Source of the DNA: Persicaria tinctoria
Taxonomy: Eukaryota; Streptophyta; Magnoliopsida; Caryophyllales; Polygonaceae
Assembly: GCA_037127255.1 (NCBI GenBank)
Contig: JBANSL010000001.1
Coordinates: 39,361,001 to 39,425,000 of the forward strand
DNA length: 64,000 bases
Reading direction: 5' to 3'
In this document: one piece after another, positions 23,997 to 57,290 of the stretch
How positions within the stretch are numbered: position 1 is the first letter of the stretch
Layout of the letters: the number at the start of each line of letters is the position of its first letter
Program-made: the position numbers and the translations under genes
The notes under the pieces: model-generated
Databases searched by the model: none
What the model saw: only the letters and a program-made list of their open reading frames with translations
What the model was told of the DNA's origin: nothing

Positions 23997-24098
23997 ATTG
24001 CCCCTATATTTTTCTATGTCCGCTCCAGGCAGACCATCTCCTAGATGTGGATTAGGTAACCAAGTCCATCGTCGGCCCTTCATACCTGCTTGAGATCC

Positions 24099-28488: not shown

Positions 28489-28491
28489 CTT

Positions 28492-29562: not shown

Positions 29563-29571
29563 TATAGTTAA
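29563..29571. repeat. Left 9-bp target duplication TATAGTTAA
   Basis: Identical to 57282-57290 and immediately outside the MULE ends. Confidence 0.8.
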
Positions 29572-29779
29572 GAGGAAATGGTAGTAAATACCACTCTTCC
29601 AAAAAACTTTGCAAAAATGCCAGCAATATGGAAAGTTTTGCAAGAATGCCATTTTTGGCGCAAAATTGCACAAATCTCACGGTAATCCAACAACAAAAAC
29701 CGGCTATCATGTGTTTTGTTGGCCAAAAAAAAAGAAAATTAAAGTAGAGGCATCATTGCCTAGTGAAGAGAGAGAGGGC

Positions 29780-30640
29780 GGGAAGGTGAAATAGGGGGAG
29801 GGTTAGTAAATGCCCATCCAATCACAAATCTCTCTCCCGTTTGAAAACACAACGATAGCAAAGAGAGAGAGAGGCTTCTTCATCTTCATCGGCAGTTGCA
29901 GCGAGGCATAGAAAGGGAGAGAGAGAGGGCGGTTTCTTCTTCGGCAGTTGCAGAGACGCCGGTTCGAGAGAGGAACAACACAGGAGAGAGAGCGGACAGG
30001 TCCACCGTCGCCGGAAAGTAGACCAGACACGACATAAATCAGGTACGCCCTCCAACTCTTCTCCCTTTGGTGTTATTGTGCGCGGGTGTGGGTCGAGGAA
30101 GGAGTGGGTGAAGGGGTTAGGGCAATGGCGGCCTGAATGGTGGGTCAGGGTGGTGGTTTTCTTCTGTGGATAATGGTGGGTGGTGGTGGCATGGGTGGTT
30201 TTCGGGTATGGAAAGGGGAAATCGGTGGTTAGGGTTTTCAATTTGGTGACAGTGGTTTTCGGAATGGGTTAGAACAACGGTCGGGGAACTATGGATAGGG
30301 GAAATTGGTGGATTGAGGTTCGAATTGGGTGACAGGGGATTGACATTGGGTGACAGGGGTTTCAAATTTGTAGAGAAGGGTTTCTAAATTTGTTGTGGTA
30401 GTTGGAATAGGGGAATTGACGAGGTGTGGAAATTGGGATATGTGGATGTCGTAGGTGTCCTATTGAAGGAGGTTTGAGGTATTGGTTATAGGCTTCCGAT
30501 TCATAATGGTTGACATGGGTTTGACACTGAGTGACAAGGGTAGAGTGACATGGGTTAGTCTGTTAGGTGACAGAGGGAGACAAATATAATTGGTAGAAGC
30601 TGACTTTGTTCGTGTGATGCAAATTGCAGGAGATAAATCT
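29780..30640 (+). promoter_or_regulatory. Subterminal region and untranslated leader of Ulp1 gene 1
   Basis: After the left end comes a GA-rich stretch in which GAGAGAGAGG and CGGCAGTTGCAG recur. A candidate leader exon ends at CATAAATCAG followed by GTACGCC (30040-30046), a good splice donor. The homologous donor in Ulp1 gene 3 is followed by the same GTACGCCC. The intron (to about 30630) carries several GTGACA-word repeats (30510-30570). No coding gene was recognised here. Confidence 0.5.
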
Positions 30641-30683
30641 TGAGGACGAAGAATGTGAGCTCGAAGAACAAAGAGTCTGACTA

Positions 30684-33600
30684 CCTAGTCCCCGAAGCTA
30701 GGCACTTCCGCGCCCGGGTCAACTAGGGCTCAAGACTGTCAATGCTGAACAACATTAATGATTATGTTGACCCTAGCGACTGGCAAAAGCTGCTTGACTC
30801 CCAGCTTGGTGGGTTTGTGCAGTTGGCGCACACTGTGAAATTTTCTTTACAAATGGTGCATTATGCACTCCAGCGACAGCTTGCAAGCGAAAAGGAGTGG
30901 GAGACGTGGTACCGGATTAAGGGGAAGCTCCGGAGGTTCTCCCTCAAGGAGTTTACCTTAGTAACCGGGTTGTGGTGCAGTCAACCAACACCTAGTGACA
31001 TGGAGGACGACGAGAAAGCTATCAAGGAGTTTTTTGGAAACGAGAAGATGACGGTTGGTGACCTCGAGACCGAGCTGAAGAACTCAATAATGGTGTTGCG
31101 GAGCCCGCGAAGACGATTCAAGCTAGTGCTTTTGTACATTGTGGAGGGTGTTTTGTTAGGGGAGGAGCAGAGGAAGGGGCTGAGGAGCTGGATCGTCCGG
31201 TTGGTGGAGAATGTCGATCGGTTTTTGGCATTCCCATGGGGGAGGGTCATCTATGCTGCAACACACGTGTCACTGAACGGCGCCGTAAAGCGCCGGGAGG
31301 CTGAGATAAAGGCAGAAGATCGAAAGAAGCGCAATGGTTATGGCTTGATGGGTTATCCGGTATCCTTTGAGGTATCCTTCTCGACCACACCCATGATCAA
31401 TTTGTAATTCATATGCTGAAAATGTATTAATTTGAGTGGGGATGCGGTGCAGATTTGGTTGTTGGAATCCATGCTGAAATGGGGGGTCCGGTTTGAGACG
31501 AAGGTGTCGACGACGGCATTGCCTCGTTGCATGAGATGGACCCTCAAGGATGAGAACCTCGCTTATAAGGATATAGCCAGCCGCACCGAAGCTGAGGGAG
31601 AGGAGGCCATAGAGATTGATGATAACCCAATACTCATACTAGAGGAGGTTGAGCTGGAGCTGATGGATGGCTGTGTGTACGATGATGAGAAGTCCGACCC
31701 CTTCTTCGACGACCTAATTTCACCCTTCCTGACATATTTCGAAGCCCCTGGTGGGAGGTCCCTAAGGACGGAAAGAGGAGGCAATGAGAAGGATGGCTGG
31801 GTGGGGGACGTGGCCAAGACTTTGGAACAAGTTATGGACAAGCTTCAGACAATGTCAACAGGGATGAAGAAGATGGATGAAAAGGTAGGCAATAACTTCC
31901 CAATTATTCGTTCTGTGGAGACTCGGGATAACTGTGAACTAGGGTAAATGGACTCCTGACACGTGAAATTGGACAAGTGACACGTAGTGTAGATAATGAA
32001 CGAATGTTGTATGAAGGGTGAATTGTGTTGAATTTTCTCACCTTATGGTGATATGAAGTAATAATTTTATCACCTGCAGCTGAAATTATTGGAGGTGACC
32101 GTGATTGAGCTGCGGGATGGTCAATGTAAGGGGACGGCCTGGCAAGAAGCAGCCGATAAAGAACAACAAGCTGGAGATGAGAAAAAACGGGATGAGTTTG
32201 TAAGCTTGTTTTTGCGTGACATGCGTTTCGATGTTTAGTCTTGTTTGAAATCGGGGATTCAATATCAAATGTTAATATATATTTTACAGGTCGAAGTTGA
32301 TGAGTTGATAGAGTCAATTGCGGCTAAAGCCGGTGAGGGTGGACAAGGTGGTAAGGTTAGTTGTTGGTAAACATCACAAGATTTGTTATTTTCAGTGACA
32401 CTAGAGGAATGTGACAGGAAGATTGTAGCTGTGTGACATGATTTGTTATGTTAAGTGACACTGGAAAGTTTGAGGAATAATTAAATTTTGATTTCATTTG
32501 CAGTTAGGAGGTGCTATTGAGAAGGGAAGTGAAGTGGATGATGGCGGGGATAAGCACACAGAAGTTGAAACTGTGAAGGCAAGGGATGAGATATCAGGAG
32601 AAAGCAAGCTAGCTGTTCATGATGTCGGGGAGAAGCATGATGAAGCTGAATCTGTCAAGGCAGGGGATGGGTGGGGGTGGGGGGGGGGAAGGAAAGACCA
32701 ACGAGGTGAGGTTTATTTATGAAAAAAAAGGTGATTATATATGTGACATGAAAGTTTATGGCAAGTGACATGAGTATATCTGTTATGTGACAAGGGATAG
32801 TGTCAATCTTAGCTGAAATTTGATATGTTTGCAGTTGGGAGAGGTTGGTTTAAAGGGGTCTGGTCATGAGGAAGGTGGAAAGAAAATTGAAGTTGATGAG
32901 AGGCCGAAGCCCAGGGTAGCTCAGGTTTATGCATCTAAGGGGGCGAAGAAGACGAGGAAGGCTGTTGGAGAGGAGCTGGATCCCCCGGCCAAGAAACCGC
33001 GACCCCAGAAGGCAGCCACTGTTCCCGCCGATGCTGTTCAGCTAGGAATGGTGTTAGCGACGGACAACGATGCCATGACAAGTTGGTTGGCAAGGTACGT
33101 AGCTTATGTGTCTTACACTCGAATAGACGACGAAGGTAGATAGTTGAACGTCCACAATACCTGACAGAAACTTAACGTGCAGTGGGGACGCGGAGGTGCG
33201 CACGTCACCCTGCGGTGTGGATATGACGAAGGAGCTACTCAACCGTCTGAAGAAACCCCAAGATTGGTTTGGAACTGTGGTATGAACACTTGTCACCTCT
33301 AAAATTTCCTGTGTCAGGATTTTGGATTAAAATTGCGGTTCACTTCATGTAGGAGATGGAGGAGTGATGCTACCTTTTGCGCAAAGCGGTCGCAGACAGA
33401 ACGGGTGACATGACCAGTGGAGCCATCGTAGTCGATACGTGCTTTGCGGGAATTCATCTACCTCGGGAATGGAAGGAGTACATCGCCACCCCCGAAGCGT
33501 ACGAGCCTAGTGATGCATTGATGGCGTACTTAAATGGGGGGTCGCCGAAGCCGTTGGGACGAGCGTGGTCAGGTGCGGACCTCATCCTCCTCCCCTTCAA

Positions 33601-34068
33601 CGTCAGGAACAAACACTGGGTTGCCCTTGCCATCGATCTTAAGGAGTGGGAGGTAAGGGTGTATGACTGCGACGTCCACATGGTGACAGAACGCCAACTC
33701 CAGCCCCTGTTAATGCCTGCGACGAGCCTGATCCCTGTCGTCATGCGTGCACACCCAGATCTGAAGGTCAAGTATGCCGATAAGGTCCCCACGCCGTTTG
33801 CCATTCGCTGGGACAAGAGCCTTCCACAGAACAAGCAAAGGTAAGTTGGATGACATGGTTCAATTTCGTTTGATTGGATGGGGAATCCGTGTCCGCGTTC
33901 TGACCGATTGTTCCCCTTTGCACCGGTGATTGTGGCCCGTACACCATTAGATTCATGCACCTCCTGCTGGAGACCGCCCCGAACTTCGATGGATTGGACG
34001 GCACGTACATTGAGGCATACTGCCAGATGCTAGCTGTTGGGGTATTCCATGGTCGACTCGGATGCTAG
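30684..34068 (+). pseudogene. DUF1985-Ulp1 protease gene 1 of the MULE
   Basis: Multi-exon gene. The first coding exon (to about 31371) encodes a DUF1985 domain (DYVDPSDWQKLL, KLRRFSLKEFTLVTGLWC, YIVEGVLLG, VDRFLAFPWGR). Later exons encode a short coiled-coil segment (31453-31884), charged linkers (32079-33093), and at 33353-33841 and 33924-34068 a C48-type cysteine protease domain. Triad positions are visible: His in NKHWVALAIDL, Asp in VYDCDVH, Cys in GDCGPYTIRF. Ulp1 proteases cleave SUMO from proteins; the role in MULEs is unknown. Lesions, judged against genes 2 and 3: the expected ATG is GTG, an in-frame TAG at 30724-30726, TGA at 33365-33367, and the last intron ends CAC instead of CAG. 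An ATG at 30742 could restart translation. It ends in TAG at 34066-34068. Confidence 0.85.
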
Positions 34069-34599
34069 ACTTTGGAGTTGAACACTTGGTTCCAATCATA
34101 ACACCCTCCTGTAATAGTGGAAGTAAAACATTTGGATATTTTGCGAAACTTGGTAGTTGTCGAATGTGAACATTTTGTATATGTTAGTAGGTATGCGGAC
34201 ATGTTAAACTTGCCAGTGTAGCTACATGTATCTATCCAATTTGGTGACACGGTATTTGTCGTTAGATGACACGAGGATTAAAAGGGGTGACATGGGTCAT
34301 TTACACTATACGTAGGTATATGAGACAGTGAATAGTGACACGAAAAAACCTGTCAGGTGACACGTGCATGGAAAGACGGTACCCGATACTGGGACAAAAG
34401 AACAAAACGACAAAGGAAAAAGAATCTTTCAGGGTGGCAGTTGGTTGCACAGTTCCATTGACCTACTTACAAAAAATGAAAACAAAAGAAAATGATGTGT
34501 TCCTCGAAATTAAAAGGTAAACAAAAGAAAAGTAAAAGTAACTTGCATTTATTGCAGTTGGGGAAAAAAACCACCACCTACACAAGGGAAGGAGAGAGA

Positions 34600-35110: not shown

Positions 35111-35566
35111 AATCTTGCCCACTTCATTTGCATTCTTCCATTGTTTCGTTGTAAGGCATGCAATTTGGGATTGGACAAAAATCGGAAATTGGGGATTTGG
35201 AATAACGGTCATGTGGGGAATTGGGGATACGGGGAAATACAGATCTGGGGTAAAAGGGGTGTGGGGAACTGAGGAATTAACAGACAAGAGCGAGGGAGGT
35301 TGAAGAAGAGCGTGGGAGGCTTGCGGGTCCTTTAACCCAGATTGTGAGAGTGGAGAAAAACCCCTGTCAGAAACGGGTACTGTTGGACAATTGGGAGAAG
35401 ACAATTGACATTCATGACATGAGCTATTCTGTTGGGTGACAAGGGTTACTTCAGTAGGTGACATGGGCCTTTTCTCGTTAAACAGTCACAGACAGACTTA
35501 TTCAGTAGGGGGGTGACTTTGTGTGGATATTGATAATGTTCATGTCCACGTAATTGCAGGAAGAAC

Positions 35567-38500
35567 ATGGTTCGGTCCCAGAATTTGAGAAGGAAAGGTG
35601 TCCGGGCACCGAAGAAGGTGGAGCCCCGACTCACAGTGCTGGAGGAGAAGCATTTCCGAGGGCGGGTCAACCAGTCTTCCAAAGTGTCTCTGCTCGTCAA
35701 CATGGACGATTGGGTCGACCCCGTCGATTGGGAGAAGCTGCTGCGAAGCCAATTTGGGGATATTGTGCAAATGGCAAACCGGGTTCAATTCTCGTCGCAA
35801 CTACTACATTACGTGTTACAAAGGAAGTTTGTGACAGAAAAGAAGTGGGAGAGTTGGTACATGCTTCAAGGCAAGCTACAGCGATTCTCTATCAAGGAGT
35901 TTAGGCTTGTGACTGGGCTGCGGTGTGGTCGAGTTCGGGGGGAAGACACAGAGACGGAGGATGAAAAGAAGACAAAGAAGGCTCTCAAGGACTTATTCGG
36001 AACGGACAACATGAAGGTGGGTGAGCCGGAGAATGCCTTCAAGAACTCCATCTTGAAGGAGCTGAGTGCGAGAAGGCGTTTTAAGATCGCTCTCCTCCTC
36101 ATCGTCGAAGGAGTTCTGCTGGGGGTAGAACCCAGGAAAGCCATACGAGGGTGGATTGGGAAGCTTGTGGAGAACGTTGATCGATTTCTGGATTACCCCT
36201 GGGGCAGGATTGTGTACGAGGCCACCCACGAGTCCCTGTCGGGCGTCATAGAACGTCGTGTCGCTGACTTGAAGCCGAATGCGAACGACAAGGACGATCG
36301 ATATGGATATGGGCTTATGGGTTTTCCGTATGCGTTCTAGGTAAGCTACTTGACCGAAGTTATGCTTGAACTATTATGCACAATTGATGCACTCACTCGA
36401 ATGACATGTGTGGTTGTTTTAGATTTGGTTGTACGAAGCTGTCCCGGGAATTGGGGAGGCGTTTGCGAACCGGGTGTCGACCACGGCGTTGCCTCGCATG
36501 CTGAGGTGGACAGCTGATGACGACAATCTAATGTATGAGACGATCCAGTCCCGCATGGACCTTGAAAAATCGGATAGAATAAAGGTCGAAGACAACCCGA
36601 TACTAGTACCGAAGGCCGTCGAGTATGAATTAATGCTCGGGTGCTTCTACCAGCATGAGGAGCCTGACCTCTACTTTGATGAAATTGAGGCTGCGTTGGC
36701 ACCGAGTTATTACGGTGAAGGCTCTGGCAAGTCCGGCCCGAGTTCGGAGCAACGAGATAGGACAAGGGAATCCTGGGAGGATAAGTTGGGGAAGACAGTA
36801 GAACTGATCTTGGAGAGGCTGGGAACCATGTCAACATGGATGCGGAGCATGGATGACAAGATACGTTTAACTTTTCTGGCATTTGTGACATGGTATATTT
36901 TATATGTGACACGGGTAATTGTCAAAGGTGACACGGGTTACTTATCTCCCAATGCCGAATAACATTGGCTAACCACCCGTCGTTTATGTACTTTGTGTAT
37001 CAGATGAAGGTGTTGGAAGGTGTTGTGAATGGGATGCGAGATGGCCGGTCGAATGCAGGAGGTGAGCAGAAACCAATGGGCGATGTCCGTGGAGAGGATA
37101 ACGACCACAAGAACGGGGGGGACAGAGGGACAAACTAAGGTGGAAGACCAACCACCAGAAGGAGAATAGGAGGTAAATTGGTTGTTATTTGACATGGTAT
37201 TTTCTGAATCCACGGCGAAGGGGTAATAGAATCAACAATTTATAATATGTCAATATTTTGTACACAACTCACACGGTTGTTAAAGTGAAGCGACACGTAT
37301 TAATATGTTAAGTGACAAGGGAACAAATATATTATCTGAATCACAATTGAAATAACCATAACCAATTGTCAGATCTCAGAGGCGGTCAAAGACGAGACCG
37401 TTGGAGGAACTGGAGGAGATGTCAGTGGAGAGAAAGTCGGGAACCATAGGGATGCTGAGGACAAAAGCGGTAAAGCTGGTTCAACGGAGGTACCACCTAC
37501 AGTGAACGACCAAGCAACGCCGGAAGGACAGGATGAGAAGAAGGTAAAATGCCTGTTACTTCACATTGTCATTTTAATCTATAGTAGTACGTAAGTGACA
37601 AGTGTATCAGTGTTAGCCGACACGAGTACAGATCGGGGTGACACGGGGGTCAAAACATTTGTTCCTTCACCGTTGAAACTGTCTAACCAATTGGCAGATC
37701 CCAGAGGCTGCAAGAGCGGAGCCCGTTCGAGGCAGGAAGAGTAAGAGAGGTCCAGGAGGTGAAGGAGAAGTGAAGTCCCTACCTCATAAGAAAACGCGGG
37801 GCCGAAAAGGGAAGAACGTTGTCGAAGGCGCGACGGCGATTAAGCTGGGTCTTGTTTCCGTGTCAGACAACGATGGGTTCATCCGCTGGATGGATAGGTG
37901 ACACTCATCAGCAGACGTACCCAAGTTATTGCATAGATGACTCCAATCCCCTAACATTGTGGTTGTGGTTGTGCAGCGGGGATGAGGACACCTAGAAGAC
38001 TGCATACGACACGGCGCTGAGTAAGGAGTTCTTCACCGCACTAAAAACGCCCACAGTTTGGCTAAACTCTGAGGTACGAAACCCCCCTAAGTGAATATCT
38101 TTGTCTAGTGAATGACACGGTATGTACTGTAAAAGGTAGTGGAATAGTTTTGGATTTTGACTAGGGTTGTAATCGATGCAGCACATGGAACAAGCATGCT
38201 ATCTTCTTCGGAAAGGGGTAACGGAGAGAGCCGACGACATTGGCGGTCGAGTTGTCGTTGTGGACACATATTTCGGTCGCTATCTGCAGACGGAGTGGGG
38301 CAAATACAAGAGCAATGCGGGTAGCTACCAAGCCGACGAGAAGCTGCTTGGCTACTTCGACGGGCGGTCCACGGGGACGATAGGCCGGGCGTGGGAAGGG
38401 GCGGAACTCATCCTCCTACCTTTGAACGTGGACAATGTTCACTGGATCGTCGCAGCGATCGATCTGGTCGGGTGGCAGGTAAGGGTTTATGATTCGGACG

Positions 38501-38895
38501 TCTACATCGTGAGGGACCACCATCTGCCGGCACACTTAAGCTGCATCACCCACCTTATCCCGGTACTGATGAATGCCCACCCCACGTTGATGGCCACCTA
38601 CGTCGACAAGTTGCCAAAGCCGTTCGCCCTTAGTCGCGAGAAAAGGATTCCGCAAAACAAGCAGAGGTAATTTTTGTCCAACACTTAAATATATCTTCGT
38701 CTCATAGTTGCATCCGGCTGTAATGAATATGACTCCTGCGATTCTCTATTGCAGTGGAGACTGCGGTCCTTACACGATTAGGTTCATGCAACTCCTCCGA
38801 AGGACGCCCCCACCTACGACGATCTTGACGACGTTTTCATCGGGGCGTACAGGCACATGCTCGCTGTTCGCATCTTCAATGGTACACAGTTATGA
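35567..38895 (+). pseudogene. DUF1985-Ulp1 protease gene 2 of the MULE
   Basis: A paralogue of gene 1 in the same orientation, with a clean start (MVRSQNLRRKG at 35567, just after a splice acceptor). Exon 1 holds DUF1985 (DWVDPVDWEKLLRSQ, KLQRFSIKEFRLVTGLRC, LIVEGVLLG, VDRFLDYPWGR). It ends at 36340 with TAG where CAG before the donor is expected. Exon 2 starts 36423 (IWLYEAVPGIG); its donor reads AT instead of GT (36862). Charged linker exons follow at 37003, 37377-37544 and 37697-37899, then 37977-38072 with an in-frame TAG at 37993-37995. The protease exon (about 38180-38669) has His in NVHWIVAAIDL and Asp in VYDSDVY. The last exon (38755-38895) has GDCGPYTIRF, then a frame shift before the conserved MLAV-x-IFNG end. 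The catalytic triad is preserved but the gene is not translatable intact. Confidence 0.85.
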
Positions 38896-39554
38896 TCTCA
38901 GTTGTGATCACCATTGGCCAGTATTATGAAATTTTAAGTTATGGTATAAGCTTCTTATCAACATCGTTTTTATTGTGTTGGATATTTATGAACAAGGTTC
39001 CTGATTCTCACATTTAGTTGTGGACGACAGTTCACTAGGTTGGTATTTTAGTACATTGGTATGAACTATTTCGCATTCTTTATCTTCGGTGAGTGGTTAT
39101 GTGTTGTGGACTGTTACATTATTTGTATGATAATTTGTAAGCAGTGAGTTACCATGTTGGCATGGTGCAAACATTGGTTATAACTAGTTCAGAAATATCC
39201 TGTGTCACCAAACTTGCAATCCCGTGTCACCTGACGTGATTATCCGTGTCACTGATGGTGAGTAGGGTGATTTTCTAAGCTTGTTTATGTGTTGATAGGT
39301 TCATATACGTATTGTGACAAGGCCCTATCATAGGAACCACAAAAATTTACATTTTGTCATGGATGATTGAATGTAATGTGGCAACCAACGTACTCGGTTG
39401 AAAGCCATATTAAAAGTTGTAAGGAAATATCCCGTGTCACAAAACTTGCAATCCCGTGTCACCTGACGTGATTATCCGTGTCACTGATGGTGAGTAGGGT
39501 GATTTTCTAACCTTCTTTATGTGTTGATAGGTTCATATACGAATTGTGACAAGG

Positions 39555-42188
39555 CCCTATCATAGGAACCATATAATTTTACATGTTGTCATGGATGATT
39601 GAATGTAATGTGGCAACCAACTTACTCGATTGAAAGCCATATTATAAGTTGTAAGGAAATCTCCCGTGTCACCGAACTTGCAATCCCGTGTCACCTGACG
39701 TGATTATCCGTGTCACTGATGGTGAGTAGGGTGATTTTCAAACCTTGTTTATGTGTTGATAGGTTCATATACAAATTGTTACAAGGCCCTATCATAGGAA
39801 CCACATAATTTTACATTTTGTCATGGATGATTGAATGTAATGTGGCAATCATGGTTATTAGGATCTCGATCCGGATCTTACGATCCTACGATCCTACGAT
39901 TCTAGGCAAGGTTTTGATCCGGATCGGGCATATAGACTCCTTTGTGCTAGGATCTACCTAGGATCCTATGAGATCGTGTAGGATCCGTAAGATATACCTA
40001 GGATCTACCGATCCTAGAAAAAATATCCGATCCTAGCAAAAATCATATTTGTGTAATTGTGTTTGTTTTGTTTGGATATTGGGCCTTCTAGATACGATGT
40101 ACCTTTTTATTTTTTGGGCAACCCATCTCCTTATAAATTGAAGGCAAAAGAGTGAAGACGTTGAATTAAAACCCTAACTCTTTTGTTTCGCCACTCAACT
40201 CAACAAATATTAATCCACGTCTGAGTGTCTGAAATTATTCATGATGTGGTTAATTGCGATCATAACATTTGAAACTAGAGATGACATTGGATATTTGGAA
40301 GTGTGATTTATCTTTTGAATATTTGTCATATTTTAAGACATTATCCTTGTCTGCTTGTCACCTTTTGCGATATTATTTTTGACAAATTATGAATGTTAAA
40401 TGCTTATTATTATTGGACTATTTTAGTTACTTAATTTGTTTAATGGAGGAAAAACTTAGTTTTACTTTAAAATTAAAGTATTTGTTTAGGATAGTTTGTT
40501 TTTAATTTATTATTTATTTTATTTTTAATTTTTGTCTAGGATCTTACGATCCGATCCTAGGATCCGATCCTACGCCCTTGTCTCGATCCCAAATTAGGAT
40601 CCCGATCCTAAAAACCATGGTGGCAACCAACTTACTCGGTTGAAAGCCATATTATAAGTTATAAGGAAATATCCCGTGTCACCAAACTTGCAATCCCGTG
40701 TCACCTGACGTGATTATTCGTGTCACTGATGGTGAGTAGGGTGATTTTCTAACCTTGTTTATGTGTTGATAGGTTCATATATAAATTGTTACAAGGCCCT
40801 ATCATAGGAACCACATAATTTTACATTTTGTCATGGATGATTGAATGTAATGTGGCAACCAACTTACTCGGTTGAAAGCCATATTATAAGTTGTAATGAA
40901 ATATCCCGTGTCACCAAACTAGCAATCCCGTGTCACCTGACGTGATTATACGTGTCACTGATGGTGAGTAGGGTGATTTTCTAACCTTGTTTATGTGTTG
41001 ATAGGTTCATATACGAATTGTTACAAGGCTCTATCATAGGAACCACATAATTTTACATTTTGTCATGGATGATTGAATGTAATGTGGCAACCAACTTACT
41101 CGGTTGAAAGCCATATTATAAGTTGTAAGGAAATATCCCGTGTTACCAAACTAGCAATCCCGTGTCACCTGACGTGATTATCCGTGTCACTGATGGTGAG
41201 TAAGGTGATTTTCTAACCTTGTTTATGTGTTGATAGGTTCATATACGAATTGTTACAAGGCCATATCATAGGAACCACATAATTTTACATTTTGTCATGG
41301 ATGATTGAATGTAATGTGGCAACCAACTTACTCGGTTGAAAGCCATATTATAAGTTGTAAGGAAATATCCCGTGTCACCAAACTAGCAATCCCGTGTCAC
41401 CTGACGTGATTATCCGTGTCACTGATGGTGAGTAGGGTAATTTTCTAACCTTGTTTATGTGTTGATAGGTTCATATACAAATTGTTACAAGGCCCTATCA
41501 TAGGAACCACATAATTTTACATTTTGTCATGGATGATTGAATGTAATGTGGCAACCAACTTACTCGGTTGAAAGCCATATTATAAGTTGTAAGGAAATAT
41601 CCCGTGTCACCAAACTAGCAATCCCGTGTCACCTGACGTGATTATACGTGTCACTGATGGTGAGTAGGGTGATTTTCTAACCTTGTTTATGTGTTGATAG
41701 GTTCATATACGAATTGTTACAAGGCTCTATCATAGGAACCACATAATTTTACATTTTGTCATGGATGATTGAATGTAATGTGGCAACCAACTTACTCGGT
41801 TGAAAGCCATATTATAAGTTGTAAGGAAATATCCCGTGTTACCAAACTAGCAATCCCGTGTCACCTGACGTGATTATCCGTGTCACTGATGGTGAGTAGG
41901 GTGATTTTCTAACCTTGTTTATGTGTTGATAGGTTCATATACGAATTGTTACAAAGCCCTATCATAGGAACCACATAATTTTATATTTTGTCATGGATGA
42001 TTGAATGTAATGTGGCAACCAACTTACTCGGTTGAAAGTCATATTATAAGTTGTAAGGAAATATCCCGTGTCACCAAATTAGCAATCCCGTGTCACCTGA
42101 CGTGATTATCCGTGTCACTGATGGTGAGTAGGGTAATTTTCTAACCTTGTTTATGTGTTGATAGGTTCATATACGAATTGTTACCAGG
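39555..42188. repeat. Macro-duplication, copy 1 (2,634 bp)
   Basis: This block (part of a unit, an inserted 770-bp element, then seven further units) recurs at 42189-44822, with the same unit order and the same private variants (such as CTCCCGTGTCACCGAACTT). The boundary is approximate because it falls within a repeat. All matched landmarks are offset by exactly 2,634. Confidence 0.92.
39850..40619. mobile_element. Small inverted-repeat element inserted in the array, copy 1
   Basis: 770 bp, bounded by CATGGTTATTAGGATCTCGATCC (left) and CATGGTTTTTAGGATCGGGATCC (right, minus strand). Flanks GTGGCAAT and GTGGCAAC match the uninterrupted repeat unit, so an 8-bp target duplication with one mismatch is likely (hAT-like). 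Both ends are full of GGATC/GATCC/TAGGATC words. The AT-rich middle has no coding capacity. Confidence 0.8.
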
Positions 42189-44822: not shown

Positions 44823-45339
44823 CCCTATCATAGGAGCCACATAATTTTACATTTTGTCATGGATGATTGAATGTAATACACATGCATAACATCAACAAGT
44901 GGAAATGTAATAGACATGCATAATATAGGAGGGACATTGCCCTATACATACCATATCCGATCATACATGCACCATTCATAACGGTGCAACCGCACTCGGC
45001 TTTCCAAAAAACGACAACTTCACGAGCGTGGGTGAGACATTGTTTCTAACTACCCTTACATAGGCCCCTAACTGCAAGAAATGGGGGCCATCCACCACAT
45101 ACGGAGTTGTGGCGGAGTCCAAAAAACCACATCTGTTTGGGATCACATCAGTATTTGGCAACTACTACAACAACATCACAAGTTTTGGCAAAAAACAAAG
45201 AGAACTAGCTTCGAAGCTCCTAAGCCCTGATGACCAGACGCACCATAACTCCCATCATCAGCACGAGAATCCACCCCATCAGCCTGTTCCAGCGGGTGAG
45301 TTGTCGGGTGCGGAGCTGCTCGCTAGCATGCCCGACCCA

Positions 45340-45876: not shown

Positions 45877-46189
45877 CAGTACAAGGGAAAATAAACGTCA
45901 GATGGTAGAAGAAAACCAAACACAAGAACATACGTGCATATGAAAAATATGTAAGCATGTTTTATATTGGAGACAAGTACATATATGTGAAAAAGATGAA
46001 TGGGAGAGTGAGATGATATGTCACCAAACAAGTAAAGGAGAATGTAAAATATAAGGTAAAATAATGTCCGGACCTTAGAATGTTGAGAAGGAGAGATCTA
46101 TGTGCAAGCAAAGTTGGAAATGGTAAATACAAGTGTGAATATGAAACTCATATCAATGAATTAAAGTTTTGACAAAGTTATATAACAAA

Positions 46190-46610
46190 TGGAAGAAATC
46201 ACCCGTGTCACCAACTTTGCAATCCCGTGTCACCAAAATTTGAATCCCGTGTCACCAATTATATATACTTGACAAAAATCCTACTAAGAACCTTCACAGA
46301 CAAAGAGAAAGGTTGCAAATTTCATAGGCTTAATCATATTTATGCTTTAGATTCACACAGAAAGGATCCTAAATGTTCTATTTCTTTTTCAAGCCTAACA
46401 AGTACATATATATGAAGAATATGAATGGGAGAGGGAGATGATTGATATGTCACCAAACAACTAAAGGACAATGTACTATATAAGCTAAATTACTGTAAGC
46501 ACCTTATAATTTTGATAAGGAGAGAATTATGTGCAAGCAAAGACCAATTACAAATAGGTGGTTAGAAATCACTTGTGTCACCAAAGTTGTAATCCCGTGT
46601 CACCAAGTAT
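46190..46610. repeat. Scattered CCCGTGTCACC words
   Basis: Four to five copies of (C)CCGTGTCACC at 46202-46260 and near 46597, in AT-rich DNA between the coiled-coil exon and its possible leader. No gene is seen from 45900 to 47020. ACAAGTACATATAT...GAATGGGAGAG...GATATGTCACCAAACAA occurs twice (45974 and 46399), a direct duplication of about 130 bp. Confidence 0.7.
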
Positions 46611-47172: not shown

Positions 47173-47326
47173 GGGGGGGGGGGTTGGTGATGGTCACCAA
47201 ATTTCGAATCCCGTGTCAACCAACATAATAACCCCTTCAACATTAAATATATGTCAATTTGCACTAATTCACATTTGAATATGGTCACAAGGTTGGTATT
47301 TTTGTACGTTGCTATGAAGTACTACC

Positions 47327-47555
47327 TCCGTTCCGAAAAACTTATCAGTTGACTATTCACGCACGCTTATTTTTAGAGAAAAAACTATAGAAAATATCTA
47401 CTTTCGTATTTATTTGTAAAAACAATTTCGTAGCTATTATTATCAAGTACAAACTTGTTACAAAATTTTTATGAAAACGTATATTTTATATAGATTTTTT
47501 AATTATAAATAAGGGTGCTTGAATAGTCAACGACAATTTTTGCCAAACGACAACT
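47327..47555. mobile_element. MITE-like insertion, copy 1
   Basis: It starts CTACCTCCGTTCCGAAAAACTT. Near both ends is the inverted word CTATTCACGCACG / TGCTTGAATAGTC. The same element lies at 49674-49915. The preceding 50 bases (ATGGTCACAAGGTTGGTA) are also duplicated there. Confidence 0.65.
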
Positions 47556-47823
47556 AAGTGTTTCAATTTCTTTATCCCTTTTTTTACTTTCTGTATGCGG
47601 TAATTTTTTACTCTCTATATTGCACTCACATAAATTGATTTTATGGTTGTAAAATATATTTTTAAAAGTTATAAAATTTAATACACAATATTTTAACATT
47701 TTACAAACCCTAACTACTTTCCCATGCAATATGCATGCAAAATACATATATGGATTTAACTTATGTACTTAATTTCATGCGGTAATGTTTTACTCTCTAT
47801 ATGCGTTATAAAATTTATTTTAA

Positions 47824-48444: not shown

Positions 48445-49370
48445 GCAATGGATCAAGGAAGGGAACGTTAGGGCAAGGAAATCAGAGGCATTGACGCTTC
48501 TAACACTACCATTCGATCTCCTATTGGAGATTGTCGGTCGATTAGTAATTCAATCTCTAGAAGATGTCTTCAGATTACGGTTAAGGTCTTGCCTCCACTT
48601 TTGATTTCGTTAATTTATGTATTCGAAAAAAATTTGATTCACTTAATTGTGATGCAGTTGCAAAACTTTTGATTTGGTTGGAAAACACAATTATGTGCTT
48701 GCGAAGATGGCAATTGAGTACCAGGATGACTAGGGAATTTCGGTTGTAGTTGCATCGAGAAACGATAGTCATGCCAGAAGCTTTTTAAATCAACGCGTCA
48801 ACGCGGGAAACCCGGAGGCAATCTTTCAGCAAGGAATGGTAAGACGTTGATTCTGGATCATTGGTTCGGTGTATGCTTTATCATAGTTCCTCATAGCTTC
48901 ATTTCAAAATGCAGGTTAAATTCTTCACAAATTGCGATCACGATGGAGGCATTCAAGATCTTCTAAAGGCGTCGGAGTTGGGACACGACGTGGCAAGCTA
49001 TGTTTGTGGCATAGCTATGTATTGTTGCGGATCTGAAGAGCTCAAACCCAAAGGCTTTGCATTACTTAATAGTGTGAAACATAAGTTGGGCTATAAAATA
49101 ATATCGTGTCGCCGGAGAGTTGCTGATCTATTTTATGATATTCTCGTAATTGCTCGAAGATCTTCCTTCAACTGGAAGCGGAACACATGTACAAATATCA
49201 CCAATGGAACAGCGATTCGGAGTTGTCGAAGATCAAACCCTTGGAAAAAATTTCATCTCCTTGCTGAAGATAAAGATGATGCTCTTTCTTGTGAGGAATG
49301 CACGTGCACAATTGAGTGTGGGTTAGTCGAGGGTATGCTTCAGGGGATTACACGAAATATGGTGGAATAA
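48445..49370 (+). pseudogene. F-box protein pseudogene (At2g35280/At1g67623-like)
   Basis: The plus strand encodes an F-box (LPFDLLLEIVGRLVIQSLEDVFRLR, about 48500-48580), the Skp1-binding module of SCF ubiquitin ligases. Frame breaks follow; then NQRVNAGNPEAIFQQGM, an intron of about 75 bases (GTAAGACG ... TTTCAAAATGCAG, ending 48913) and VKFFTNCDHDGGIQDLLK, ASELGHDVASYVCGIAMYCC. The C-terminal part has a Cys-rich CEECTC segment. This layout (F-box plus a Sel1-like block) matches a plant family of small F-box proteins. At least two frame breaks lie between F-box and intron. It is unrelated to the MULE genes and is probably an acquired host gene. The block 47580-49610 is flanked by two direct copies of a ~330-bp sequence containing the MITE. 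Confidence 0.75.
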
Positions 49371-49673
49371 AAATTTGCCTCAGTTTGGTCTATTAAGTTT
49401 GGTTAATTTTGATACTATATCTAATGTGTTATTATAACATATAAAGATATTATTGTTACTGTATCCAAATATGATCAATTGGGAGCTCAAAAAAAATTGA
49501 TCAAATGAGATACTATATCTTTTTTGGTAGAATTGAGAAACTATATCGTTTTTGGTAGAATTGAGAAACTACCTCCGTTCTGAAGTACTACCTCCGTTCT
49601 GAAAAAATTTGCACAATTATACATTTCAATATGGTCACAAGGTTGGTATTTTTGTACGATGCTATGAAGTACT

Positions 49674-49915
49674 ACCTCCGTTCTGAAAAACTTGTCACTT
49701 GACTATTCACGCACGATTATTTGAGGAGATAAAACAATATAAAATAAAATATCTAGTTTTGTATTTATTTTTAAATACAATTTCGTAGCTATGATTAGCA
49801 AGTACGAACTTGTTACAAAAAAATTTACAAAATATTATATTTTATATAGTTTTGTTCAATATAAAAAATCGTGCGTGAATAGCCAACCACAAGTGTTGCC
49901 GAACGAAAACTAAGT
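49674..49915. mobile_element. MITE-like insertion, copy 2
   Basis: Same element as at 47327. It starts CTACCTCCGTTCTGAAAAACTT, with inner inverted repeats CTATTCACGCACGATT and AATCGTGCGTGAATAG. The related sequence at 39055-39110 has the flanks joined without it (ATGAAC then TTTCGCATTCTTTATC), showing an empty site. An extra partial CTACCTCCGTTCTGAA lies at 49573-49605. Confidence 0.7.
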
Positions 49916-49959
49916 GTTTCGATTTCTGTATCTCCACTCGGTGGTTATGTGTTGTAGAC

Positions 49960-50330: not shown

Positions 50331-50408
50331 CCAAAGGACAAGACTAAAATCAACGTTGTTCACAACAAAAGACAACATATCACTTCCATACCTACACCCA
50401 AACGACGA

Positions 50409-52219
50409 TCAGATTATGCGTCCACCGAGCTGACCATTGAAGATGGCAACCGCTAGCATCTGTCTGTATGGCCCAATAAATGTGTCGTCCAGCCCATCGA
50501 AGGGGGGATCAGTCTCCATGAAGAGCTCCATGAATCTGATCGTGTAAGGGCCACAGTCACCACTGCAATGACGGAGATTTTGTCAAAACAGAGGTGGAGA
50601 TATCATCAAGTTAAATGAAATACAGGGGTCGCACCAATCACACCTGAGCTTGTTTTGCGGAACGCGCTTGTCGCGGATAATGCGAAACAGGGCTGGCAGC
50701 TTCGATGCATACTTCACCTTCAACTCAGCGTGTGCATCCATGATGATGGGGAGGAGGTGGGTAACGTGCATCAGCAGGGGTGGGAGTTCGACGTCTATCA
50801 CGCAGTGCACATCGCAGTCATACAACTTCAACTGTCACTCATTCAGATCAAGAGCAATGGCAACCCAATGTCTTCGCCTCAGGTTGAGGGCTAGGAGGAC
50901 GAGGTCCCCGCTTGCCCACGGACGGGCCATGGGCGTCGGGGCCCGCCCGTCGAAGTATGAGAGGAGTATGCCACTCGCCTCATACCCCCCGACGTCTGAG
51001 TTGTACTCCTTCCACCCCCTCTCCAGAAAGCTGGAGAAGTAGGAGTCCAACACAATGACTCGACGCCCATTGTCGTAACCCCTCTCCGCGCTTTGTTTCC
51101 GTAGCAGGAAGCATGACTGCTCGAAGTGTTGCGTCAAGTTAACCCCCATGACAACCCACAACATAGTCCAACAGCAACCCAAATGCGTATACAAGGCCAG
51201 TCATAATAAAATGTGAGAAATACAATATACCTCTGAGTTGATCCAATAGCGGGGCGTCTGAAGGGCGGTAAAAAACTCCTTCGACAGGTCCTTTCCGCAA
51301 GCCGTTGACAGGGTCTCACCGTCGGCACTGGACCGTACAATGGAGTGGAATCAATGAAAGGGTAACTGTGCCGTATAATGAAGACTGAAATGAGACGATG
51401 GGTTACCTTGCGAGCCACCCCTGTAGGACCTCATAGTCGGCCGCAGAAACTAGTCCCATGGCAACGACTTCACCGGGAACGACGAAGTCCTTCCCTTTAC
51501 AGGCCCGCGGTTTCATAATCTTCCACGCCTTGCTCTCACATTCCTGGTCGACGAACAACCTCTGAATTCAAACAAACATTTCCCATGTCACATAACAAAA
51601 TGACCCCTGTCACCTAGCTAACATCCCCATGCCACTATTGAAAACATAACGGATGAATGGCCACAAGGAGCGTACCTTAGCAACTTGTCGGGGCTGCTCC
51701 ACAACTTCAGTACGAGACCCTTTGGTACATCAACATCAACAACCCGCAAAACCGATCTACAACTTAGATGGATACAACATGTACAAACTCCTTTTCACTA
51801 TCCCTTACTCTTTGTTCCTTGCCTCTTACAATCAATTTTCCATCCCGCATTTCATGGACCTTCTCCTCCAACACTTTTATCTGCACACAAGAAGTTGTTA
51901 CAATAAATCCACCATCTCCTCCAACAGTTTTATATCCCGTGTCACATACTGTATGTCCCATGTCATTATTCTATTTACCGTAGTCACTGAACTTAAGAAC
52001 AATATGAGAGTGAATAATGCGAAAGACTGAAGTACCCTATCATCCATCTTCTCCAAGATATCCATAATCTTCTCGAGTGTCTTCACCACGATATCCCTAG
52101 CGCCGTCCGTCTCCTCGACGTAGTTGGCGATGTTGGCAAGCATCGCCATCCTCAACCCTTCGTTTACCCGTGCCCGAAAGCGCTGATTCTGTGGCTGTGT
52201 AAATTTTGTCCGAGCCATT
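50409..52219 (-). pseudogene. Ulp1 protease gene 3 of the MULE, DUF1985 lost
   Basis: Minus-strand paralogue of genes 1 and 2. It starts MARTKFTQPQNQRFRARVN at 52219 after a splice acceptor. After NIANYVEE the frame passes directly to GARDIVVKTLEKIMDILEKM, which in genes 1 and 2 lies beyond DUF1985, so that domain has been deleted. Linker exons follow (about 51910-51790 with stops, 51570-51415, 51345-51235). The protease exons are about 51150-50644 and 50562-50409. His is in RRRHWVAIALDL, Asp in LYDCDVHC and Cys in GDCGPYTIRF. A single TGA at 50835-50837 replaces the Trp conserved in genes 1 and 2 (DLKEW, DLVGW). The protease exon acceptor reads CAA where gene 2 has CAG. The end is QLGGRII then TGA at 50409-50411. 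Confidence 0.83.
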
Positions 52220-52669: not shown

Positions 52670-52800
52670 GGCGTACCTTCTGAGTTTCCTGGCGGCGTTC
52701 TTCTCTTATCCGACAGTCCCCGGCAGTCTCTTCTTCGACCCGTTGTTCCTCGTTGCCGGCGTCTCTTCTTCCTCCCCCTTTCGAACAGTTTTGAGTTATG
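52670..52800 (-). promoter_or_regulatory. Untranslated leader exon of Ulp1 gene 3
   Basis: The minus strand GC-rich leader ends GAAACTCAGAAG followed by GTACGCCCCC, matching the leader donor of gene 1 (30040). A TATTTATCGGG word near 52830 could be the TATA region. The intron to 52225 carries CCCATGTCAC-type words (52280-52325). Confidence 0.55.
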
Positions 52801-53035
52801 GAAATTTAGAGATGGAGTCCCGATAAATACAGAAACAGACTGTGGGGTGATATCCGGGACGCGTGTCAACTTATTCTTTGTTGTTTTCTTTTTGTTTTGA
52901 GTTACGGGCAACTTTTTCGACAAAAATGGGAGAGGGTCAATTTTTCCAAATTATCCCCCATTGTGCTATTTATGCAAGTTTGGCCAAAAGTTGGTCTATC
53001 TTTGACCACTGGTTGACTAAGTTATTATTGTCGAA

Positions 53036-53420
53036 ACTTTGGTTATAAGTTGTCAGGAATTCACCCGTGTCACCCAACTTACAATCCCGTGTCACCTTAC
53101 ATAATAACCCCTTCAACATTGTCATGAAGGTGATTTCAATATGTTCACAAGGGTGAATTCCTAACACCACTACCACAACCACTCAGAAATGTAAACATGT
53201 TGTCAAATAAGTGCCAATGCATTGTTGAATTCATTATCATAGCTTCAACCACCGAAATGTCTACCATGAAATTGAAAGCTGTGACATGATAACCCCTTCT
53301 ACCTGACACGGGAATACAAATACGGTGACAGGGTTTTTTTCTGAAACCATCCCCAAAAGTACTACAAAGTTCTTCACCACTTAACTATAGTGTGGAAACC
53401 CTTCCCAAAAGTACAACAGC
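53036..53420. repeat. 3'-flank cassette downstream of the transposase
   Basis: Homologous to 49960-50330, with CCCGTGTCACC twice, ATAACCCCTTC twice, ACCTGACACGG and CCCAAAAGTAC. It begins with sequence resembling one unit of the 232-bp array (GGTTATAAGTTGTCAGGAATTCACCC). Confidence 0.75.
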
Positions 53421-53591
53421 CTACTTACAGTTTGTCATATGCACAAACAGCCAAATTACACTACCAAATACGTAGCCCGTTCAAAAAATAACATAGACGG
53501 AGAATGGTCCAACCAATGACCCGATACGGCAATTGCAAAAGACTACCTAGCTGCTGAGGTAAGGCGTTGGACCACCAATGGAGGAACAGAT

Positions 53592-56500
53592 CTACGAACG
53601 ACGGCGCTTGGAATGGCTAAATTCTCCCCGAGATGGGTATCGACAAGTCTTAGGGCGACCAGGGTGTCGCTTCACGTCCGGGGGGAGACACACCGCGCTG
53701 GACATGGCTGGGGGGATTCGCCACTCTTCTCTTGGAGGAACCGGATATAGCACATTCTCGTAACACGCCTTCCATGCTGCGACTTTGTAGAAGTCATTCA
53801 CGAGAGAGAAGAAATTGCTACCTCGAAACCTTGCAGCTGCTATGGCGTGCTGGCACGGAAACTGGTCAATGTCGAACCGCTTGCATGTGCAGGTCCGGGC
53901 ACACAGGTTCACAACCCAGGTGGCGGACCCTCTGCGGACAGTGTACTCGTGTGCGCTGAGGGCTCTATCATCCAAGAATGTTGCCAACGAATAGCTCGTT
54001 TGCAGCTCACCTTGAACGTAATCGCTGACCGTCGACGCCGATTTGGTGCTTTTTTCCCGTCGATCGTAAAACCACTTGGATATTGTTTCGATGACAACAT
54101 CAATCAGGGCTGTGAAGGGTAGGTCGCGGGGCTCCTTGAACACCGAATTCAGACACTCGTAGTTTTTCGTCGTCTATATGTTGTAGCGCATCCCCAAGAA
54201 GTATGCCCGGGCCTGGAATCCAGCCTCTCTTAGGTATTGGCCCGCAGCGGGTGCTTGAGCGTAAAAATCAGCAAAGTGCTTCTCGAACTCTGCCCTCGTG
54301 TACGCGTTCGCCACCTTTAAGTACAATGTGTGCAGGCCCGTCACCCCCCTGTACTTAACCCTGGCATTCTGAAATAGATGCCATTGGCAGGCCCCTTGCT
54401 TGGCAAACACATAGTTGTCCCTCAAACCTTTGACGATACTAAGATGCCGATCAGAGACAAACATTAAGTCCGGTGTATCCTCGACGACATGTAGCATGTT
54501 CTTGAAGAAGAAGCCCCATGACCCGTGATTTTCACCATCGACAATCGCAAAAGCGATCGGGTATACACTGTGGTCTGCATCTTGGGCTGTGGCAAATAGA
54601 AGCGTGCCCCTGAACTTCCCTTTCAGGAAACTCCCATCAACTGAAATCACCTGGACATGGATATCGACATCAGTTGGTTAGGTGACATGGTTATGTATGT
54701 TAGGTGACATGCAATATTATAGTACCGACATAGGGTATTACCTTTCAAAGGTAGGGAATCGCCTTGCGCCATAACCCGAAGCTAATAAAGGCGTACTTGA
54801 ATCTTTGGGATGCGTCCAGCTCTAACTTAGTATATGTCCCGGGGTTAGTCTGCTCCAACATGTGAAAGTATGGAATAATATCTCAGTAGCTGTCTTCGTC
54901 GGTCCCATGATTCACCTCCCTCGCTGTCAGTCGTGCCGTTCGTGCCTTCCAGTAGCTACAGGACACTCCATACTCGGACTTCGTCATTTTCTGGACTTGC
55001 TCGGAAACGAGGTCCTTTCGAGTCCCGGTGAACCTGCATATAATGGTGTCATGGTGAGTTACGTCACGTGACATGGGGAATAATGTTACGTGGTCACGAG
55101 GTTACGTCCAATCATGTTCGACGTAGCATGTCGGCTATGGTTGTGCATCATGCTCAGGTCACATGTATGCTCCTGGACATACTGTCGGATGGACCAGATA
55201 GTCGTGCGACGGTAAGTCGACGCCCTTAACATCCACGTGCACTTGTTGTCCAAACAACCAACTAAATAGGTTTTGTTACACGGCCTCTTCACTACAAACT
55301 CGAAGCACTTCTACACTGCAATCCACTTCAGGCAAGTCTGCAATTCTACCTTCGAGGCGAACATTTGTCCCTCCGAAATTTCTGTCAGATTCCGTCGTGG
55401 TTCCTGGGTCCGAGGTGTTGCTTTGTCCAACATAGCTTCTACGTTCTCCATCGACGGTGGGGATGTGCTGGACCTAGGAACCCGATCTTCAAGTTCCCTA
55501 ATCACCTCCTCCTCAACTTCGTCCTCATCCGACGACACCCTCATACCCCGGTCTTCCTCATAATCCTCCCATTCATAATAATATGAACAATCTTCTTCCC
55601 TCTTCACTCCGGAATCGAAGTCCTCCTCCTCCTCCTCCTCCTCACTGCTAATGGCTATGAGATCCACCCCCTTATACTTGTCACCTCCACATTTTTCCGT
55701 GTCATTTGGAGAGGAGTCTGTGTCACCCAAGTGGATAACATCTAGACCTACACACTTGTCACCCTCAAGAATATCCATGTCACCAGTTCCAGACCCTTTG
55801 TCACCTGCGTGCTCTTGGCTCTTCCCTATCACCCCACCCAACTGGATCATTTCCGGACCTATACCCTTGTCACCTACACTCTTAAGCTTTTCACCAGTTC
55901 CAAACCCGCTCTCAGTAGCGTCCTCCTGTCTCTTCCCTATCACCTCATCCATGTGGTTCGACTCTGGACATTTACCCTTGTCACATTCAAAAATACGTCT
56001 GTCACAAGTTCCAAAACCCATTTCAGTAACATCATCCTGCCTCTTCCCTATGACCTCAGCCAAGAGGATCACTGACGGACCCTTACCTTTGTCACCCTCA
56101 CATATATCTTTGTCACCCCTTCCCAACCCCGTTTCCACATTGTTTTTCACCCTTATATCGTTGCTCATCCCTATTGACTAGCTAACCCCTCCTCCACCAT
56201 ATAACCCCACATCTACAACCATAGGGTTTGGTTGTGGCTTACCTTCTGCCTCCAGCTCGTCCACCTTTTGAGAGTTACGAGGCCCACTCAAGCATTCTTC
56301 CCCGACGCCGGGTTGTGGTACTTGAAGGCTCTCTTTCACCACTGGACCAACATATATCGTCATGGGCCATGGATGATCCCCAGACATCGAGTTGAGAAAC
56401 TTAAAGGCCTCAAGGTCGTCGCCATCACCGATCGTTATCGGATGACCCGCTTCTTCCCCCTTTGGCATGTAAGACAACCGTCAATCTTCACATGAACAAT

Positions 56501-56670
56501 CATGGCTGACCTTGACCTTCAACAGTTGAGTCAGAGAGGCGAAGTCGATGCACTCTTCAATTATCATATTCTTCCGCTCTATTTCACCATAATACACCCA
56601 CTCCGCACCATCGAACAACCAACACCCGTTGAAGTTGAGAGTGACACAAACTTTGGCGTGTTGCCTTGCA
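53592..56670 (-). pseudogene. MURA-type transposase of the MULE, six in-frame stops
   Basis: Read on the minus strand. Near 56640-56500 is a PB1-like N-terminal block (VTLNFNGCWLFDGAEWVYYG). An acidic, repetitive region follows (56168-55600: GDKGKG, GDKGIG, GDKCVG units alternating with VIGKRQ, then poly-Glu). Next is the Mutator DNA-binding segment (FEFVVKRPCNKTYLVGC, 55290), then the DDE core. An intron at 54651-54741 is followed by VISVDGSFLKGKFRGTLL (first Asp), LMFVSDRHLSIVKGL (second Asp) and ACQWHLFQNARVKYRG. The C-terminus has a SWIM zinc finger (CTCKRFDIDQFPCQHAIAAA) and ends KRRRS at 53592. One frame is maintained throughout but carries stops at 56481 (TGA), 56178 (TAG), 55311 (TAG), 54883 (TGA), 54745 (TGA) and 54174 (TAG). 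The true start was not resolved. Confidence 0.88.
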
Positions 56671-56689
56671 ATTGAAAAATCGGATCAGC

Positions 56690-57046
56690 ACCATTGTTAA
56701 TGGGTATCTACTCTTTACGAAACATGAGGAGAAATAAAAGAGAAGCCTACCCATTGCAACTGAGAATTAGGGTTTCTCATATATCTCTGTGACACGGAAG
56801 TTTACGAACACTGACACGAACGAATAAAGAGCCCGACACGTGCTCACCAACTGGCCCTTAATGCGGATGGGTTCTTCTCCAATGGTGGTCTTCTTCTCCA
56901 GCTCTCTTTTCCACGGGAACACCGAAAATGATGGCCTCTCTCCTCCTCTCTTATTAGACTTTAAAAATGGAGGGAAAGCCTTTCCCATCACCTCACCTCC
57001 TCTCTCTCCAATTTTGGCGCCAAAATCCCCCACCTAATCCGATGTC

Positions 57047-57137
<91 letters not shown>

Positions 57138-57180
57138 ATCCCCTTGGGACAACCTGCAACCGGCTAAGCAATTTCCCCAT
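56690..57180. other. Right subterminal region of the MULE with (CT)n
   Basis: Transposase upstream region. It contains a pure CT run at 57050-57135 (about 43 units). The terminal repeat follows at about 57175-57281. Frames of repeated Ser-Leu or Glu-Arg here are composition artefacts. Confidence 0.8.
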
Positions 57181-57281
57181 CTTATTTGCACTAATACCAC
57201 ATATGGTATTTTTGCAAATTTTCTAAATAAGTGGTATTTGTGCAAACCCGGCAAAAAAGTGTATATTTGTGCAAATAGCCC

Positions 57282-57290
57282 TATAGTTAA
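57282..57290. repeat. Right 9-bp target duplication TATAGTTAA
   Basis: Identical to 29563-29571. Confidence 0.8.

Follow-up and report, generated by a model that had tools for sequence, protein, structure and literature searches.

What is a stretch of almost 28 kb with a transposase at one end, protease-like genes at the other and a satellite-like array between them: one transposon, several nested ones, or a transposon that has gathered unrelated repeats? The question is raised by a locus of Persicaria tinctoria contained in the 64-kb window C1:39361001-39425000 of the 1.68-Gb host genome; the window is the whole stretch of DNA analysed here, and positions given without a chromosome refer to it. 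A first-pass annotation had described the locus as one giant Mutator-like element (MULE) of 27.7 kb, several-fold larger than typical MULEs. The evidence leaves hardly any doubt that 29572-57281 is a single MULE that has moved as one unit many times. We also favour, with fair but far from complete confidence, the reading that it is a giant MULE of the VANDAL/Kaonashi kind with an anti-silencing code of its own, consisting of the oriented motif GGTGACAnGGG and a protein predicted to read it.

Termini, copies and unity of the element

The element spans 29572-57281 (27,710 bp), and word search together with copy comparison places the 9-mer TATAGTTAA directly outside both ends as a target-site duplication (29563-29571 and 57282-57290), where it had been noted before. 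In the 64 kb the only further match to this word is an inverted one at 53381. Positions 29572 and 57281 are real termini. Both were located by alignment and by genome searches made with each end separately, in which only the best candidates were scored, so that all copy numbers are lower bounds. With the left end (terminus 29572-29671, + strand, beginning GAGGAAATGGTAGTAAATACCAC), 31 of the 40 scored places, the best of 526 candidates, start at query base 119-124 (= 29568-29573) and 38 at query base 111-130. With the right end (terminus 57182-57281, - strand, closing with GTGTATATTTGTGCAAATAGCCC), 23 of the best 40 of 654 candidates stop at query base 141-145 (= 57280-57284) and 38 at query base 138-168. 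The two exceptions in both searches are the window itself and a duplicate on C11, which share their flank.

The two ends are diverged and inverted, as had been proposed. Alignment of the terminal 100 bp gives a short, degenerate inverted similarity of 37 columns, set back from the ends by 14 and 42 bases, which exceeds chance, its score being reached by none of 500 shuffles and none of 500 random window pairs. Long terminal inverted repeats (TIRs) are absent from these aligned 100 bp, as in the non-TIR MULEs of the VANDAL and Kaonashi types. Words resembling TTTGCAMAAATACC (up to two mismatches) occur six times in the 64 kb, in two clusters placed exclusively at the element ends, the right one holding four matches, one of them on the opposite strand.

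Further copies with the same ends are present in the host genome. Among the 40 left ends listed, 19 have a partner among the listed right ends, no more than 60 kb away and in the correct order and strand, and pairings on the wrong side or opposite strand number zero; 18 distinct right ends are used, since two left ends at C2:47.3M share one. The distance is 22.1-23.1 kb in seven pairs and 25.3 kb in the C11 duplicate, shorter (6.8-17.2 kb) in four and longer (26.6-48.8 kb, the window included) in the remaining seven. The figure of 27.7 kb thus holds for the window copy, and the commonest family size is instead 22-23 kb (seven of the 19 paired copies); the window copy exceeds it mainly because its array, described below, has expanded to 18 units. 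Six other loci were retrieved as stretches of 30-40 kb each (C14, C19, C2, C11, C8 and C9). On C14, C19 and C2 the copies run colinear with the window element along their whole length of 22-27 kb, mostly at 93-97% identity, with an additional insert in the C2 copy. The C11 locus is a duplicate of the window locus, and the C8 and C9 copies exceed the retrieved stretch and hold other insertions.

The family makes 9-bp target duplications, within the MULE range of 8-11 bp (usually 9). The duplication is perfect in seven of 16 copies (the window, C19:61.7M, C11:9.0M, C4:16.7M, C5:38.0M, C9:11.6M and C15:32.4M) and agrees at eight of nine positions in five (C11:40.2M, C17:60.3M, C11:11.1M, C8:72.8M and C11:79.7M), two of these being low-complexity, a run of A at C17:60.3M and a simple repeat at C11:11.1M. 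Flanks are common to C5 and C15 and to the window and C11, and each of these pairs counts as one insertion event. Alleles lacking the insert, which had been suggested as a check, were found at two partner-chromosome sites, neither of them shown to be exact. The joined flanks of the 22.5-kb insert at C11:9.0M match C1:9837092-9837659, which has no insert and lacks 34 bp at the target, the 9-mer included; this is an insert-free allele and no exact pre-insertion site. For C17:60.3M, the joined flanks align over the junction to C7:70890932-70891417, with query bases 1-544 of 600 set against 486 bp of target at 85%. For the C19 copy the flank is too repetitive for an empty site to be shown. Giant elements are both shared and unshared when C11, C15 and C17 are compared with C1, C5 and C7, and the partnerships C1/C11, C5/C15 and C7/C17 suggest that chromosomes n and n+10 form partner sets, either subgenomes or haplotypes.

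It might be argued that two or more MULEs are nested or lie side by side at this locus. The first two genes, A and B, resemble a direct duplication, with 64-66% DNA likeness, and a matching duplication is missing from four of the 16 copies (C14:13.7M, C2:36.9M, C17:30.9M and C2:47.3M). These four copies count against one mobile unit, as do the two insert-free sites, neither of them an established exact match, the C7 one being known from its alignment extent. Against nesting stand the terminal words, which fall in just two clusters, one per end; the conservation of the whole order between the same ends on C14, C19 and C2; and the perfect 9-bp duplications in seven of 16 copies. Because three colinear copies share ends and internal order and many copies have 9-bp duplications of their own, one MULE without nesting accounts for the locus as had been claimed, and the nested or adjacent arrangement, already disfavoured, retains a negligible probability.

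Coding content and the 232-bp array

From left to right the element carries genes A and B (both +), the array of 232-bp units, a TPR_27 fragment, and gene C followed by the transposase (both -). Pfam was run on open frames, 26 in total. The transposase region (53595-56177, - strand) contains a MULE domain at 54177-54677 (E 7.7e-16) and a SWIM domain at 53595-54173 (E 1.1e-8), with a stop between 54677 and 53595, in agreement with the MURA/SWIM transposase recognised earlier. Two further matches, both under the Pfam cut-off, come from frames of other copies: DBD_Tnp_Mut, the MuDR DNA-binding domain (E 2.9e-5, narrowly missing it), and a PB1-like N terminus (E 0.0016). In none of seven sequences examined does the transposase occupy one open frame, the longest piece being 423 residues (C19), and in the window copy at least the transposase and gene C are broken by stops.

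The three Ulp1-like genes previously counted were recovered as genes with Peptidase_C48 (PF02902). According to Pfam and frame reading, gene A (about 30727-34070, + strand) has DUF1985 (PF09331) at 30727-31404 (E 6.9e-25) and Ulp1/C48 at 33368-33841 (E 5.8e-13), and gene B (about 35537-38900, + strand) has DUF1985 at 35537-36337 (E 1.7e-26) and Ulp1/C48 at 38173-38667 (E 4.8e-15); in both a short frame reading GDCGPYTIRF follows. Each DUF1985 and Ulp1 pair probably forms one gene, given their shared order and strand. A protein search with the DUF1985 frame yielded two relatives among 1975 candidates. Gene C (50425-51200, - strand) has a stop inside and no DUF1985 was found alongside; its Peptidase_C48 match is weak alone (E 0.038, under the Pfam cut-off), and it is 68% like the first gene over 594 bp. 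In all three genes His, Asp, Gln and Cys stretches, which we take to be the catalytic residues, can be read by eye, the Cys lying in the separate GDCGPYTIRF frame. The TPR_27 domain fragment, a plant domain matched by Pfam at 48897-49367 (+ strand), is possibly a captured piece of a host gene.

A satellite-like array belonging to the element had also been reported, and repeat analysis bears this out with a correction, namely that the motif found throughout the remainder of the element is present in the array unit too. The array (39146-44977) begins about 9.5 kb from the left end and comprises 18 units of 232 bp, with 33 exact TGTCACC motifs and 13 intervals of 22 bp; within it a 2,634-bp block (39610-42243) is repeated in tandem at 42244-44877 with four differences. 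Among the arrays found in the genome (best 40 of 465 candidates), 36 of 38 hold two to six units, compared with 18 in the window and 12 in its C11 partner. A listed left end (best 40 of 526) lies within 45 kb upstream of 22 of the 38 arrays, and for 14 of these 22 the distance is 9.4-10.0 kb. The array is the GGTGACA(nGGG) motif amplified, and not a chance passenger. The duplicated block also holds an insert of 768 bp (39852-40619 and 42486-43253), which has short inverted ends rich in AGGATC and GTGGCAA on its flanks; none of the six other loci contains it.

An oriented motif and its predicted reader

Outside the array, GGTGACA or its complement TGTCACC occurs 39 times exactly in 21.9 kb of element and twice in 29.9 kb of flank, a flank count that omits a neighbouring long terminal repeat (LTR) retrotransposon with one further motif. 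In 200 dinucleotide shuffles the word reached a mean of 3.8 and a maximum of 10, and the best of any 7-mer was 17; among 7-mers found up to three times in the flanks, it is the commonest in the element outside the array. Its extended form, GGTGACAnGGG, has 41 sites in the element outside the array at up to one mismatch and 90 at up to two, versus 2 and 17 in the rest of the window. The motif strand follows the arm of the element: exact GGTGACA and TGTCACC stand at 14:1 in the left arm and 5:19 in the right, and GGTGACAnGGG at one mismatch is distributed 18:1 and 4:18 between the + and - strands. The motif therefore reads along the direction of transcription of each arm's genes.

Spacing is equally regular. 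At up to two mismatches, 25 site pairs lie 21-22 bp apart, versus a mean of 1.2 and a maximum of 7 in 1000 jittered sets, and ten more lie 41-44 bp apart. Motif search places the first cluster in the stretch that separates the left end from gene A (30185-30566, + strand); clusters with 22-bp spacing, partly resembling the array unit, lie beside the array (46019-46604, - strand), and eight exact GGTGACA words lie in or beside a 111-bp tandem repeat (55679-56117, - strand), within an open frame in register with the transposase.

The best explanation for this arrangement is a DUF1985-Ulp1 factor reading GGTGACAnGGG, because the element has the same parts as the VANC and KIU systems discussed below. 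A MURA-type transposase would have cut and pasted the element through its short non-TIR ends, and one or both DUF1985-Ulp1 proteins would be a VANC-like anti-silencing factor. This factor would bind the oriented, helically spaced motif in the element and in the array, the latter serving as an expanded binding platform, and would strip DNA methylation from the element and from other elements bearing the motif. That GGTGACAnGGG is the target of the element's own DUF1985 protein is judged somewhat better than an even chance.

Two other views of the motif have to be considered. In the first, GGTGACA serves MULEs as a transposase-binding site or promoter element and is no anti-silencing target. Clusters ahead of gene A and in the transposase region would suit this role, as would a second element at C1:637601-642000, which has no Pfam domain in the four frames scanned and is full of the motif, as would be expected of a substrate moved in trans. 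Transposase sites of Mutator elements are, however, expected near the element ends, and the exact motif is absent from the terminal 670 bp on the left and 1,160 bp on the right, while its expansion into an array lies about 9.5 kb inside the left end; we regard this view as unlikely, at about one chance in five. In the second, no protein stands behind the motif and the array, which result from the usual drift of tandem repeats and were spread by duplication. Some motif pairs do fall within duplications, namely the 111-bp repeat at 55.7-56.1 kb, one of 145 bp at 46.0-46.5 kb, and the sequences at 46.2 and 53.1 kb, which are similar to the array unit. Drift is hard to reconcile with the recurrence of the 21-22 bp spacing at 30.3-30.6, 35.4, 36.9, 51.6, 54.7 and 55.8 kb, places for which the self-comparison gave no likeness, with a strand that follows the arm, or with the genome-wide excess and the second element presented below; it seems less probable still than a transposase or promoter role.

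Several observations tell against an anti-silencing factor and its motif. The shared descent of some pairs, such as those at 46.2 and 53.1 kb, is unmodelled by the jitter null, and 8 of the 39 exact motifs (55.68-56.11 kb) fall in the frame in register with the transposase, so that not all are noncoding. VANC proteins are reported by Sasaki et al. in 2022 to contain DUF1985, DUF287 and Ulp1, and motif density is said to show helical periodicity; DUF287 was absent from the Pfam matches of the 26 frames scanned. In crude counts over 28 frames on both strands, the ratio of amino-acid-changing to silent differences was 1.6-3.4 and no frame stood out as selected, as is expected because copies decay after insertion; these counts do not single out which frames are genes. 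The AlphaFold model of the DUF1985 frame (five sequences) had a pLDDT of 37 and gives no structural support for DNA binding.

The motif extends beyond the giant family. The exact pair TGTCACC-N14,15-TGTCACC occurs 12,496 times genome-wide versus 35 for the reversed pattern, and start-to-start spacings of 10-40 bp give 44,322 pairs versus 1,598, spacings 21 and 22 making up 28% of pairs; these totals include the giant MULE family itself. The pairs listed first, on C1 below 6.2 Mb, belong by eye mostly to a 21-bp repeat, with 17 in a 64/65-bp repeat, and neither the window nor the six other loci contain the core words of these repeats (12- and 14-mers). Spacings of 18 and about 35-40 bp occur beyond the giant family too, and 21-22 bp is not universal. 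The element at C1:637601-642000, the single 21-bp-repeat locus examined, is MULE-like and at least 2.4 kb long, and close to its ends it has an inverted repeat of 60 bp that is imperfect (TTTTGCAAAATGTCCAC...). It shares one 18-bp match with the giant element at E up to 0.01 and holds GGTGACA 40 times, with every occurrence confined to 638734-639810. On one strand none of the three frames is closed across this array (up to 329 residues); another frame, of 143 residues, is found outside the array, and no Pfam match was obtained in the four frames scanned. A very similar motif array lies 5 kb beyond this element, and 64/65-bp repeat arrays with the TGTCACC pair were seen at C1:840484-840902 and C1:3970893-3971240.

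Such loci raise the possibility, which we hold tentatively and at clearly less than even odds, that GGTGACAnGGG in helical register is an anti-silencing code shared by transposons of this plant. The DUF1985-Ulp1 reader would be supplied by giant MULEs, while MULEs unrelated to them, some small and without a recognisable protein, would have acquired arrays of this word in evolution and would profit from that factor. If true, unrelated transposons can converge on one escape from silencing, forming a genome-wide epigenetic commons instead of one code per family, and arms races of this kind create satellite DNA.

Two side features accompany the element. An LTR retrotransposon (23165-29326) lies just to its left, with LTRs 97.4% alike and a 5-bp duplication, CTGGA, and is absent from the C11 partner locus. 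Inside, two copies of about 320 bp (47256-47576 and 49606-49932), 84% alike and partly forming an imperfect palindrome, are perhaps a pair of miniature inverted-repeat transposable elements (MITEs).

Comparison with known systems

A MURA-type transposase domain and a 9-bp target duplication place the element among the MULEs. The absence of long TIRs, the association of DUF1985 with Ulp1, and tandem repeats of an oriented short motif that vary between copies make a VANDAL/Kaonashi-type architecture very probable. A MULE commonly measuring 22-23 kb with three Ulp1 genes, an array of up to 18 motif units and a motif common to an unrelated MULE was not found in the portion of the open-licence literature covered, nor was GGTGACA as a transposon motif among its titles and abstract openings. 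The locus would widen the reach of the VANDAL/VANC anti-silencing architecture to a further plant and to a MULE family that is both giant and multi-copy, would explain a satellite-like array as amplified, predicted factor-binding sites, and makes a precise motif and spacing available for testing.

Very large MULEs and MULEs with Ulp1 are already known. In the section on grapevine MULEs of PMC2528002, Mutavine-1 measures 17.7 kb and Mutavine-18, which contains ULP1, 16.2 kb; some of these elements carry ULP1, some have no TIRs, and 9-bp duplications are present where found. The Persicaria element resembles them in great size, in the 9-bp duplication and in Ulp1. It differs in that its family is commonly 22-23 kb; motif analysis is absent from that section. 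The several-fold excess over typical MULEs claimed earlier consequently stands against most MULEs and not against these published cases of 16-18 kb.

The statement that Kaonashi MULEs carry Ulp1-like proteases agrees with the relevant part of a review (PMC13317346), in which VANC genes with a captured Ulp1 domain (KIU) belong to Kaonashi (KI-MULE), a non-TIR MULE, and act in the same way as other VANC genes. The Persicaria element likewise combines Ulp1 with a non-TIR MULE, a likeness in gene content; unlike Kaonashi it has three Ulp1 genes, two of them with DUF1985, and differs in size.

The closest parallel is offered by VANDAL21 and VANDAL6 of Arabidopsis, as described in the sections consulted of PMC5735166. 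VANC21, whose family is depicted with DUF1985, recognises YAGTATTAY both in vivo and in vitro in the noncoding DNA of VANDAL21, where the motifs have a single orientation, high density and tandem repeats that expand and contract between copies; DNA methylation is lost through the action of VANC. The same holds for VANC6 with AGTTGTCC/AGTTGTAC, and a motif-bearing transposable element unrelated to VANDAL, AT9TSD1, is likewise among its targets. In VANDAL elements TIRs are absent, or short and degenerate (PMC6446971, in part). Like VANDAL21 and VANDAL6, the Persicaria element joins a transposase to a DUF1985-family protein and carries short motifs of one orientation as tandem repeats varying between copies. 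Unlike them, it is 22-28 kb long, has two DUF1985-Ulp1 genes and a third Ulp1 gene, and bears GGTGACAnGGG, a motif common genome-wide, in place of YAGTATTAY (VANC21) or AGTTGTCC/AGTTGTAC (VANC6).

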